Source: Candidatus Desulfofervidaceae bacterium (GTDB taxonomy: Bacteria; Desulfobacterota; Desulfofervidia; Desulfofervidales; Desulfofervidaceae). From it: a stretch of 63,467 nt of DNA. Positions 560 to 4,651 of this stretch are shown in pieces (positions within the stretch are counted from its first letter, which is position 1; each line of letters begins with the position of its first letter). Below the pieces are notes generated by a model, which saw only the letters and a list, made by a program, of their open reading frames with translations, was not told the origin of the DNA and ran no database searches. The position numbers and the translations under genes were made by a program. The DNA is taken from positions 1 through 63,467 of the forward strand of contig JAMOPI010000006.1 in NCBI GenBank assembly GCA_027064585.1, given 5' to 3'.

Positions 560-587
560 TTGACTTTTTGCTTATAGTTGCTATAAA
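560..587 (+). promoter_or_regulatory. Sigma70-type promoter of the trp operon
   Basis: TTGACT at 560-565 and TATAAA at 582-587 are separated by 16 bp, a good housekeeping match. The start of transcription is expected near 594, which coincides with the ATG of the trp leader peptide, so the leader may be read from a leaderless mRNA. Confidence 0.6.
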
Positions 588-593
588 AGAGCC

Positions 594-644
594 ATGTTAA
601 AGATCCGGAATTGGTGGTGGCTCCTTCAGGGTGCTATGGAGTGA
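594..644 (+). CDS. trpL: trp operon leader peptide (16 residues, three Trp)
   Basis: A 16-codon reading frame, MLKIRNWWWLLQGAME followed by TGA, has three consecutive TGG codons at 612-620. It lies between a promoter and an attenuator terminator, just ahead of trpE. This is the layout of ribosome-mediated trp attenuation: when tRNA-Trp is scarce, the ribosome stalls on the TGG run and the antiterminator (633-648 with 679-694) can form. I see no strong Shine-Dalgarno site; the predicted transcript start is at or next to the ATG. The peptide has no role of its own beyond sensing. Confidence 0.85.
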   Translation: MLKIRNWWWLLQGAME

Positions 645-694
645 GCCCGCCACCAGAGGAAATAGACATAAAGGCCGTGGGTTAGCTCCATAGC
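633..694 (+). promoter_or_regulatory. trp attenuator: antiterminator stem
   Basis: Bases 633-648 can pair with 679-694, giving a 16-position stem with one mismatch (643/684) and two G-U pairs. It uses 679-682, which are also the inner half of the terminator's 5' arm, so the two structures exclude each other. An upstream 1:2 pairing, GGTGGC 616-621 with GCCACC 649-654, can form when the ribosome finishes or leaves the leader peptide, because it covers the Trp codons. Confidence 0.75.
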
Positions 695-719
695 GCTTGA
701 CCCGCGGCCTTCGTTTTTT
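673..719 (+). terminator. trp attenuator: intrinsic terminator
   Basis: GGCCGTGGGT at 673-682 pairs with ACCCGCGGCC at 700-709 (one G-U), followed by TTCGTTTTTT at 710-719. It lies between the Trp-codon leader and trpE and competes with the antiterminator. Confidence 0.85.
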
Positions 720-724
720 AAAGA

Positions 725-750
725 GGCCGTGGTAGATCCACGGTCTTTTT
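725..750 (+). terminator. Second terminator-like hairpin directly before trpE
   Basis: GGCCGTGG 725-732 pairs with CCACGGTC 738-745 around a 5-base loop and is followed by five T residues (746-750). It sits four bases before the trpE Shine-Dalgarno GGAGGT (755-760). Its 5' arm repeats the first bases of the attenuator arm. It may be a tandem terminator, a remnant of a duplicated attenuator, or a hairpin affecting trpE translation. Confidence 0.6.
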
Positions 751-764
751 GTTTGGAGGTAAAA

Positions 765-2234
765 ATGATTAAACCAGATTTTGCGACCTTTAAACAGTTG
801 GCCCAAGAAGGGAATTTTATCCCTGTCTATACTGAACTTCTGGCCGATATGGAAACGCCAGTTACAGCGTATCTTAAGTTAAAAAATGAGTATTTTTCTT
901 TTCTTCTAGAAAGTGCCGAGGGCGGAGAACGTTGGGGACGATATAGCTTTCTTGGCTTTAATCCCCTTTTGACCATTACCTATATGTATCCAGAAATGAC
1001 AATTGAGGGGCCGGTAAGGACATATCATTACGCCGAGGTAAACGATCCCTTGCCCCTTTTACGAGAGGTAATTCAGAGATTTAAACTTATTCCCTCTCCT
1101 GATCTTCCACGTTTTCAAGGGGGATTAGTGGGTTACTTTGCTTATGATGTTGTGCGCTGTTGGGAGCGTTTGCCCAATAAAGCAAAAAAGGATTTGCCCA
1201 TTCCTGAGGCTATCTTTGTCCTCCCTCAGGATCTTGTTATCTTTGACCACTTTAAGCACAAGATGCAGGTCATTACCTTTGCCTATGTGGATAGAGATGA
1301 GGATTTATCTGAGATCTATCAAAGGGCACAAGAACGTTTAAAAGGTCTTATCAAACAACTTAAGGCCTCTCTTAGTTTGCCTTCTTTCCCCTTTTCCTTT
1401 GACCAGGTAATTTCTAATTTTACCAAAGATGCCTTTGAAGAGGCTGTAGCCAGAGTAAGGGATTATATTTGGGCGGGGGATGCCATTCAGGTAGTCATTT
1501 CGCAGCGCCTTGGGGCTACATTTGAGGGAGACGATTTTGCCCTTTACCGGGCCTTACGCAGTCTTAATCCTTCTCCTTATATGTTTTATATTGATTTTCA
1601 TCCCCTAAAACTCATTGGGGCTTCACCTGAAATCTTGGTGAGATTAGAAGACGGACTTATCACCGTACGGCCCATTGCCGGTACCCGTCCCCGCGGCAAG
1701 ACGGAAGCCGAGGACAAGGCTGCCGAAGAAGACCTTCTGGCTGACCCCAAGGAACGGGCCGAACACATCATGCTGGTGGATCTAGGACGAAACGATGTCG
1801 GACGAGTGGCTGAGCCAGGCAGCGTGCGGGTAACGGATCTAATGGTTATTGAGCGCTATTCTCATGTAATGCATATTGTTTCCAACGTCGTTGGCCGGCT
1901 TAAGGCAGGCGAGGATGCTTTTTCTGTCCTAAAGGCCACCTTTCCTGCCGGTACCGTTAGTGGCGCTCCTAAGGTGCGGGCGATGGAGATTATTGATGAA
2001 ATAGAACCTACCCGCAGAGGACCTTACGCTGGGGCGGTAGGATATTTCAGTCTTTCTGGGAATATGGACTTTTGTATTGCCATCCGTACGCTGATGGTGT
2101 GGGAAAACAGTCTTTATATCCAAGTAGGTGCTGGAATTGTAGCCGATTCAGTTCCGGCACGGGAGTATGAAGAAACGGTGAACAAGGCTAAGGCCATGCT
2201 CAAGGCCATAGAGTGGGCAAAGGAGGGATTATAA
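765..2234 (+). CDS. trpE: Anthranilate synthase component I
   Basis: Converts chorismate and glutamine-derived ammonia to anthranilate, the first committed step of tryptophan synthesis, together with TrpG. The protein is 489 residues when started at ATG 765, preceded by GGAGGTAAAA; an upstream GTG at 729 lies inside the terminator hairpin and is unlikely. The N-terminal LLES motif (the feedback Trp site in this family) is present, as are the chorismate-binding motifs IAGTRPRG, DLGRNDVGR and GAPKVRAMEIIDE. The stop codon directly abuts trpG, implying translational coupling. It is controlled by the leader attenuator upstream, and probably by feedback inhibition by Trp. Confidence 0.96.
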   Translation: MIKPDFATFKQLAQEGNFIPVYTELLADMETPVTAYLKLKNEYFSFLLESAEGGERWGRYSFLGFNPLLTITYMYPEMTIEGPVRTYHYAEVNDPLPLLREVIQRFKLIPSPDLPRFQGGLVGYFAYDVVRCWERLPNKAKKDLPIPEAIFVLPQDLVIFDHFKHKMQVITFAYVDRDEDLSEIYQRAQERLKGLIKQLKASLSLPSFPFSFDQVISNFTKDAFEEAVARVRDYIWAGDAIQVVISQRLGATFEGDDFALYRALRSLNPSPYMFYIDFHPLKLIGASPEILVRLEDGLITVRPIAGTRPRGKTEAEDKAAEEDLLADPKERAEHIMLVDLGRNDVGRVAEPGSVRVTDLMVIERYSHVMHIVSNVVGRLKAGEDAFSVLKATFPAGTVSGAPKVRAMEIIDEIEPTRRGPYAGAVGYFSLSGNMDFCIAIRTLMVWENSLYIQVGAGIVADSVPAREYEETVNKAKAMLKAIEWAKEGL

Positions 2235-2810
2235 ATGCTGGTGCTTATAGACAACTATGATTCCTTTACCTATAATTTAGCCCAATATTTTCAGATGCTA
2301 GGGGAGGAAGTAAAGGTCATTCGCAATGATGCTATCAAAGTGGAAGAAATTACCGCTTTTTCCCCAGACTATTTGGTTATCTCCCCAGGTCCCTGTACAC
2401 CTAAAAAGGCTGGCATTTCTATAGAGGCCATTAAATATTATGCAGGCAAATTGCCTATTTTAGGGGTATGTCTTGGGCACCAGGCCATTGTAGCTGCCTT
2501 TGGGGGACGCATTGTGCAGGCTAAAACCATCATGCATGGCAAGACTTCAGATATCTATCACGATGGAAAAACCATTTTTACCAACTTACCCAATCCTTTT
2601 GTCGCCACACGCTATCACTCACTGGTGGCCGAAAGAGAAAGCCTGCCGGCATGTCTGGAAATTACTGCCTGGACAGAAGATGAAGAAATCATGGGCGTAA
2701 GGCACAAGGAGTTTTTGATTGAAGGCGTACAATTTCATCCTGAATCTATCTTAACCAAAGAAGGGTTGAATTTGCTTAAAAACTTCTTAGAATTGGGCAA
2801 GAAAAGATGA
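2235..2810 (+). CDS. trpG: Anthranilate synthase glutamine amidotransferase component
   Basis: Class I glutamine amidotransferase of 191 residues that supplies ammonia to TrpE. The nucleophile Cys79 lies in GVCLGHQ and the catalytic His/Glu in VQFHPES near residue 170; the N-terminal [12 protein letters not shown] is typical of TrpG/PabA. The ATG follows the trpE stop with no gap, and AGGAGGG at 2221-2227 is its ribosome-binding site. Because no pab genes are visible nearby, the subunit could also serve p-aminobenzoate synthesis, as in organisms with one shared amidotransferase. The 3' end overlaps the next gene by 4 bp. Confidence 0.95.
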
Positions 2811-3622
2811 AACGGGTCTGCCTTTTTTTAAGTATTGCCGGTGCCTTACTTACTTTAATTGAAATCCTTTTGCAGATCAAAGGGACTAGCCTTTGCCATA
2901 CTAGCGGTTGTAAACTGGCAGCGAGCTTTGCCCGCAGTGAGATGGCTGTATTAGGAGCAGGACTTGCCTTTTTTGTTTTGCTTTCCTTGCTTTTTTTCTT
3001 AGAGAAAAGGTTATTTTTCATCCAGCTTCTTCTTAACATAACCCTCATTACCGGCCTGGCGATAGAGGGGTATTTAGTTGGCTTTCAGCACTTTGTTATG
3101 CATGAATTTTGCGCCTTTTGTTTAATTGTCTGTGGGCTTATCTTTTTGATCGCCTTCATTTATGCCTTTACCTATCGCCAAGCCTATCCCATTTTAGGCA
3201 TAGGTGTTTTCTTGGGCGTCTTTATCGCCACTTATCTTGTTTCTCCCCCTGTTTTCTCGCAAAATCTACAACAACTGGCTACCAAGCACTATGTAAGGGG
3301 TACACCAAAGGCGAGGTGGTTTTTGTTTAAAGAAGAAAACTGTTCCCATTGTAAGAAAGTTTTGCAATATATTTTACATAAGTACCAGGGCAACTTTGAT
3401 CTCTATGTCTGTGAGGCGCAAAGATGTGCTTTATTCCTTAAAAAGCTTGGTATAAACGAAGTGCCTGTGCTTTTAATTGACAAAGGGACAAAAAAAGAAA
3501 TCCTGATAGGAGACAATTGTATTATAGCCAACTTAAAGGAAAAAGAAGGGAGAGAGCTTTTTGCCCCTATTTTCCCACAAGAAGAGGGAGGCGTATGTGG
3601 GCTAGAAGAGCCATGTCAATAG
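2807..3622 (+). CDS. VKOR-family membrane protein fused to a thioredoxin-fold domain
   Basis: A 271-residue fusion. Residues 1-145 form a multi-helix membrane domain of the vitamin K epoxide reductase (VKOR) type, with the loop cysteine pair C30/C35 and the quinone-site pair CAFC (102-105). Residues about 165-271 form a thioredoxin-like domain with CSHC (179-182). In known bacterial VKORs this arrangement makes periplasmic disulfides and passes electrons to quinone, replacing DsbB/DsbA. The gene overlaps trpG by an ATGA and precedes trpD, so it is transcribed in the trp operon, with no obvious functional link. Periplasmic orientation is inferred. Confidence 0.82.
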
Positions 3623-3631
3623 GAGGAAATC

Positions 3632-4651
3632 ATGTTTAAAGAGGCGCTAGAAAAAATAATGGCGAGACAGGATTTAGAAGAAGAGGAAATGTATCAGTTA
3701 ATGTATCGGCTTATGTCTGGCGAATTCACACCGGCCCAGATTGCTGGACTTTTAGTGGCCCTGCGCATGAAAGGAGAAACAGTAGGTGAGATCACCGGCG
3801 CCGCAAGGGCTATGCGGGAAAAGGCAGAGAGGCTAGAGATAGACGGAGAAATTGTAGATACCTGTGGTACAGGTGGAGATGCTAAGGGTACTTTTAATGT
3901 TTCTACGGCAACTGCTTTTGTCGTGGCTGGGGCGGGATTAAAGGTAGCCAAACATGGTAATCGCTCGGTTTCCAGCCAATGTGGGAGTGCCGATGTCCTT
4001 GAGGCCTTAGGGGTAAGGATTGATCTACCACCAGCAGAGGTAAAAGAATGCATTGAACGGGTAGGCATAGGCTTTCTCTTTGCCCCTAAGTTTCATCCAG
4101 CGATGAAACATGCCATCTCTCCCCGGCGGGAACTTGGCATACGCACGATCTTTAACATTCTTGGGCCTTTAACTAATCCGGCCTGTGCTACTTATCAGCT
4201 TATGGGGGTGTATGATTCCAAGTGGCTTGTCCCTTTGGCCGAGGTGCTGAAAAGACTTGGTCTTAAGGCGGCCATGGTGGTGTATGGAGAGGGTGGGTAT
4301 GACGAAATTACTATTACCGGACCGACAAAGATAGCTGAATTTAAGGATGGTAAAATAGAAACTTATGAAATTTCGCCTGAAAAATGCGGGTTAAAATCAG
4401 CTACGGCCGAGGAGATAAAAGGAGGGAATAAAGAAGAAAATGCCCAGTTGATCAGAGAATTACTCTCTGGTAAGAGACAGGATGCGTGTCTGGACATGGT
4501 CTTACTAAATGCAGCTGGAGTCTTTAAAATTGCAGGAAAGGCATCCAGCTGGGAAGAAGGAATTGAATTAGGGCATGAAATTATAAATACAGGTAAAGCC
4601 TTAGAAAAACTGGAGGCATTGATAGAGACAACGCAGGCATGGAAAGAATAG
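3632..4651 (+). CDS. trpD: Anthranilate phosphoribosyltransferase
   Basis: Transfers the phosphoribosyl group of PRPP to anthranilate, the second step of the tryptophan branch. The 339-residue length is normal. The PRPP-binding DTCGTGGD, the NVSTATAFV loop, the KHGNRS motif and the second metal-site DE in GYDEITITGP are visible. GGAGGAAA precedes the ATG. The remaining trp genes (C, F, B, A) are not in this window, so the pathway is split. It overlaps the following gene by 13 bp. Confidence 0.95.
   Translation: MFKEALEKIMARQDLEEEEMYQLMYRLMSGEFTPAQIAGLLVALRMKGETVGEITGAARAMREKAERLEIDGEIVDTCGTGGDAKGTFNVSTATAFVVAGAGLKVAKHGNRSVSSQCGSADVLEALGVRIDLPPAEVKECIERVGIGFLFAPKFHPAMKHAISPRRELGIRTIFNILGPLTNPACATYQLMGVYDSKWLVPLAEVLKRLGLKAAMVVYGEGGYDEITITGPTKIAEFKDGKIETYEISPEKCGLKSATAEEIKGGNKEENAQLIRELLSGKRQDACLDMVLLNAAGVFKIAGKASSWEEGIELGHEIINTGKALEKLEALIETTQAWKE

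Follow-up and report, generated by a model that had tools for sequence, protein, structure and literature searches.

Upstream of trpE in the window, by which we mean the whole stretch of 63,467 nucleotides analysed here (Candidatus Desulfofervidaceae bacterium, contig JAMOPI010000006.1), a short frame rich in Trp codons is followed by two terminator hairpins, which raises the question of how a ribosome on that frame could govern both. Our answer is a ribosome-mediated trp attenuator controlling two terminators in series, a statement to which we assign a probability of about 0.55. The coordinates of the features on which it is built are collected in Table 1.

Table 1. Features of the trp leader and the genes that follow it, in positions of the window
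Feature	Position	Strand	Detail	Basis
Promoter	560..587	+	-35 TTGACT 560-565, 16 nt spacer, -10 TATAAA 582-587	read from sequence
Leader peptide frame MLKIRNWWWLLQGAME	594..644	+	16 codons; ATG 594, TGA 642-644	sequence
Protector hairpin 1:2	612..655	+	Trp codons pair with GCCACC 649-654	fold -26.0 kcal/mol, z -3.4
Antiterminator 2:3	633..694	+	633-642/685-694 and 644-650/677-683	fold -28.4 kcal/mol, z -5.7
Terminator 1, hairpin 3:4	671..719	+	673-682/700-709, T6 714-719	fold -26.2 kcal/mol, z -5.5
Proposed relay helix 4:5	702..732	+	702-709/725-732	7-8 of 8 pairs in four species
Terminator 2, hairpin 5:6	721..754	+	725-732/738-745 extended by A-U pairs, T-tract 746-754	fold -17.7 kcal/mol, z -6.0
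Shine-Dalgarno GGAGG of trpE	755..759	+		sequence
trpE, anthranilate synthase component I	765..2234	+		PF04715 + PF00425
trpG, anthranilate synthase component II (GATase)	2235..2810	+		PF00117
trpD, anthranilate phosphoribosyltransferase	3632..4651	+	named from its neighbours trpE and trpG	PF00591 + PF02885

The leader frame reads ATG TTA AAG ATC CGG AAT TGG TGG TGG CTC CTT CAG GGT GCT ATG GAG TGA, with its three consecutive TGG codons at 612-620, just as the sequence-only reading had described it. Because the TTGACT-16-TATAAA promoter ends 6 nt upstream of the leader ATG, transcription is expected to begin with the A of that codon or a neighbouring base (predicted start 594 or adjacent). The frame has no apparent Shine-Dalgarno sequence; judging from these letters, the leader transcript is probably leaderless, with its +1 at the leader ATG, and we infer that the frame is translated from this leaderless transcript. 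Promoter-like -10 boxes also cluster 6-9 nt upstream of the leader start codon among 78 trp leaders surveyed. Because its rules are strict, a pattern scan for promoters and terminators detected neither the promoter nor the two terminators.

We compared the locus with those of a same-genus relative (G001) and two same-family relatives (G002 and G003), whose TrpE proteins are 78, 70 and 69% identical to that of the window. All three retain hairpin 1, hairpin 2 and the GCTATGGAG/CTCCATAGC pair (with one or two changes in G002), and the four species share TTGACT and a spacing of 5-6 nt between the -10 box and the ATG. The sequence-only reading had made attenuation depend on conservation of the leader codons in close relatives; the three TGG codons are invariant in the four species, and attenuation stands. 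In the order-level relative G005, no such leader was found directly upstream of trpE.

Five helices can be computed in the window, and they alternate over six segments as 1:2, 3:4 and 5:6 versus 2:3 and 4:5. As a whole, the region 594-766 folds at -80.0 kcal/mol, compared with -51.3 +/- 3.9 kcal/mol for shuffled sequences (z -7.3), and the z-scores of the separate helices range from -3.4 to -6.0. The antiterminator had earlier been placed at 633-648/679-694, which is right in outline: its core pairs GCTATGGAG (633-641) with CTCCATAGC (686-694), with further pairs at 644-650/677-683. Terminator 1 was likewise recovered where it had been read, at 673-682/700-709 with a T run (T6) and an overlap with the antiterminator at 679-682; with the further pairs counted, bases 677-682 are common to 2:3 and 3:4, and the two helices are mutually exclusive. 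Helices 2:3 through 5:6 are conserved in the four species, with 8-9 of 9 core pairs kept in 2:3, 9-10 of 10 in 3:4 and 8 of 8 in 5:6; the exact pairs of 1:2, in a fixed register, are only partly conserved. Terminator 2 sits directly upstream of the trpE Shine-Dalgarno sequence, and its 5' arm (arm 5, 725-732, GGCCGUGG) is complementary to the 3' arm of terminator 1 (arm 4, 702-709, CCGCGGCC). In G003, hairpin 1 is kept, but AATTCATTT follows where the U-tract is expected, and thus hairpin 2 is the only one of the pair that seems capable of termination in this species.

Taken together with the position of the leader, the conserved Trp codons and the conserved, mutually exclusive helices support ribosome-mediated trp attenuation, which is by far the best reading of the locus, and Trp-dependent attenuation at this leader is very likely from its sequence. 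The label of a classical attenuator, which the sequence-only reading had used, holds for the type of control and not for the simple four-segment form with one terminator, since the leader has six segments, two tandem terminators and a probably leaderless frame. Similarly, the compact leader of about 125 bases is accurate for an RNA ended at terminator 1 and omits terminator 2, as the full leader, to trpE, measures 171 nt.

Pairing probabilities were calculated with a ribosome masking the leader up to 629 or 632 (over the Trp codons) or up to 655 (over the stop codon), and with RNA polymerase about 9 nt ahead of the free RNA end. The leader TGA falls inside segment 2, and masking to 655 gives 3:4 a probability of 1.0. 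With the ribosome at the stop codon or with no ribosome, 3:4 is at 1.0 and 5:6 at 0.97-0.99 (free end 742-745, with the polymerase in the second U-tract), and 4:5 is at about 0 unless the ribosome is stalled. With a stalled ribosome in the window, 2:3 is computed at 1.0 to 0.76, 4:5 at 0.98 to 0.73 and 5:6 at 0.00 to 0.25. When arm 4 is blocked in addition, 5:6 returns to 0.97-0.99, suggesting that arm 4 would be what keeps terminator 2 open. Even with a stalled ribosome, 5:6 is computed to win once transcription passes 748-750, and the relay must therefore act within a short kinetic interval. The three relatives give the same switching pattern up to the emergence of the final 1-2 nt of arm 6; in G001 and G002 the margin is narrower.

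These calculations describe a mechanism in which charged tRNA-Trp, when sufficient, would let the ribosome read to the TGA and cover segment 2, whereupon hairpins 3:4 and 5:6 would both form and transcription would end. When charged tRNA-Trp is short, the ribosome would stall at the Trp codons and 2:3 would form, leaving arm 4 free to capture arm 5 as it emerges; with 4:5 in place, 5:6 would form too late and RNA polymerase would continue into trpE. We infer that ribosomes act in this way in vivo, and the disarming of terminator 2 by the 4:5 relay is, on balance, probable.

Our survey covered 231 regions upstream of trpE, taken from the phylum and from named distant relatives, a set chosen by similarity to the TrpE of the window and including a few duplicate genomes, such that its proportions are indicative; 77 of the 231 carried a curated W-rich leader. 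Tandem terminators were present in 55 of these 77 leaders (53 with two and 2 with three), and the other 22 had one. The distinct tandem cases number 52 and span at least 19 families. Three lineages, represented by G003 (L085), G170/G145 and L147/L149, keep the first hairpin without a U-tract, meaning that in those lineages hairpin 2 alone can terminate and that 2:3 must be linked to 5:6. In one family (f8: L089, L154, G256, G140, G277 and G353), the leaders contain W-C-W-W or a similar run, and their first hairpin, GGGGCCCC, is unrelated to the GCCGTGG second hairpin that follows it; the two terminators of a leader thus need not be copies of each other.

The strongest competing explanation is that attenuation acts at terminator 1 only, while terminator 2 is a partly efficient, unregulated fail-safe that lowers leakage and the complementarity of arm 4 is a by-product of similar arms (for example, through hairpin duplication). 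We consider this a serious possibility, with the relay somewhat more likely. A single terminator suffices in 22 of the 77 leaders, and on average 5:6 is stronger than 4:5 (-19.2 versus -14.6 kcal/mol), both of which sit well with a fail-safe. However, a strong unregulated terminator just before trpE would block expression during starvation too, regulation rests on hairpin 2 alone where the first hairpin has no U-tract, and the computed 5:6 probability in the window depends on arm 4.

Comparison among leaders bears on both explanations. When arm 3 was treated as sequestered, 4:5 outcompeted 5:6 in 36 of the 52 distinct tandem leaders, compared with 21.4 +/- 2.7 after swapping of hairpin 2 between leaders (p 5e-5). 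At the level of families, 5:6 has a mean probability of 0.32, versus 0.54 when the partner comes from another family (p 0.004). The control pairing 3:6, which plays no part in the relay, was likewise better with its own partner than with a swapped one, and its complementarity is as leader-specific as that of 4:5, as a fail-safe with similar arms would have it. Positions favouring 4:5 over 3:6 outnumbered the reverse by 12 to 3, or about 5 to 3 by family. Since 3:6 behaves like 4:5, the comparative data fit the relay and do not separate it from similarity between the hairpins. Equilibrium folding of whole leaders predicted control of terminator 2 in 12 of 52 leaders, with 5.9 expected from swaps (Wilcoxon not significant), and is a poor test because control of terminator 1 also goes unpredicted in most leaders.

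It is far less probable that hairpin 2 mainly serves as the site of a trans-acting factor, whether a protein or the attenuated leader RNA itself, that would also act at a GCCGTGG hairpin before trpB2. This idea draws on the rarity of the GCCGTGG hairpin per genome in the family and on its recurrence, outside trpE leaders, upstream of trpB2. The spacer between the arms varies, at 4-5 nt before trpE versus 6-9 nt before trpB2, which disfavours a dimeric DNA-binding protein and, with it, hairpin 2 as a protein operator. Moreover, the U-tracts fit termination, and the trpB2 cases are orthologous, hence one event, with two other chance-like matches in G000. Finally, to regard the whole leader as chance sequence with no regulatory role is scarcely credible given that four species conserve the TGG triplet, the promoter spacing and the mutually exclusive helices, and that many families have W-rich leaders.

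The trpB2 gene encodes a 451-amino-acid second tryptophan synthase beta chain and is present in three genomes, all of which have a terminator-like GCCGTGG...CC[A/G]CGGC hairpin between rplQ and trpB2 (G000:C33 2588-2609, L118; L116 in G001; L114/L119 in G004). Its role could be that of a terminator under regulation, or the trp leader RNA could target it in trans. In G000 and G004 (L118 and L119), the final codons of rplQ contain CCACGGCC(TT), a stretch that is complementary to the hairpin's 5' arm and is not retained in G001; from this complementarity, the 3' end of rplQ is a possible antiterminator for that hairpin. We rejected the GCCGTGG hairpin as a general genome terminator for the family of the window, where it is rare per genome. 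In 14 other genomes of the phylum, counts of a looser GCCGTGG pattern were high in some and near those of the reversed control in others, indicating that the motif itself is not trp-specific there.

Downstream of the leader, the genes are ordered trpE-trpG-x-trpD. We took the start of trpE as ATG 765; the mechanical listing of open reading frames begins it at GTG 729. Between trpG and trpD, x (2807-3622) encodes a 271-amino-acid membrane protein with a CxxC-type C-terminal part, for which Pfam gave no family match. The remaining trp genes are split off at L265 (G000:C31 20500-27300), where a trpC-like frame and a membrane protein are followed by trpF-like and trpB frames; the scanned part of L265 yielded no WW leader frame.

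Underlying the window leader is a trp attenuator of the Yanofsky type. The E. coli-type trp attenuator (trpL) places a short frame of Trp codons before trpE, followed by a protector, an antiterminator and a terminator that are mutually exclusive. The window leader shares this Trp-codon frame and the three exclusive helices with trpL (Rfam Trp_leader) and differs from it in its second terminator, its possible 4:5 helix, its lack of an apparent Shine-Dalgarno sequence and its lack of an Rfam match. For the window and 18 related loci alike, Rfam searches at gathering and permissive thresholds returned nothing above chance, Trp_leader included. In the his attenuator of Salmonella and E. coli, six segments pair as A:B, C:D and E:F versus B:C and D:E. 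As in the window leader, alternating helices relay the position of the ribosome along the segments; the his leader uses His codons and terminates at its last hairpin alone, whereas 3:4 terminates too in the window leader (lineages like G003 excepted). On his attenuation, PMC3896937 cites Johnston et al. 1980.

Trp attenuators outside Enterobacteria are already known. In S. meliloti, attenuation by trpL is experimentally established and the leader transcript starts at the ATG (PMC7298713); with this case and the 77 W-rich leaders found here, an occurrence outside Enterobacteria, which the sequence-only reading had singled out, is unremarkable. The scheme for S. meliloti trpLE(G) depicts a single terminator (PMC7298713) versus the two in the window. 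Two adjacent Rho-independent terminators follow the leader peptide of the ermK attenuator (as cited in PMC4335068), where, according to that citation, the signal is macrolide-stalled ribosomes, and its sequence and gene are unrelated to those of the window leader. A second tandem terminator with antiterminator potential is found in the rimP leader of some Gammaproteobacteria, which has no leader peptide and for which a response, probably to NusA, has been proposed (PMC2965389). Within the open-access literature, we found no description of tandem terminators in trp leaders or of apparently leaderless leader frames in this group.

More tentatively, and at somewhat less than even odds, we extend the proposal beyond the window: one stalled ribosome on a leaderless transcript may disarm two serial terminators through 4:5, this may be a common form of trp attenuator in the phylum, and the first terminator may have become a pure relay hairpin in some lineages. 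Coupling two terminators would have a multiplicative effect on repression and could make the tryptophan response sharper, with a single stalled ribosome having to release both. If the coupling of the two terminators is true, these leaders would offer a short natural system with many sequence variants in which the cotranscriptional passing of a signal along an RNA chain can be tested.
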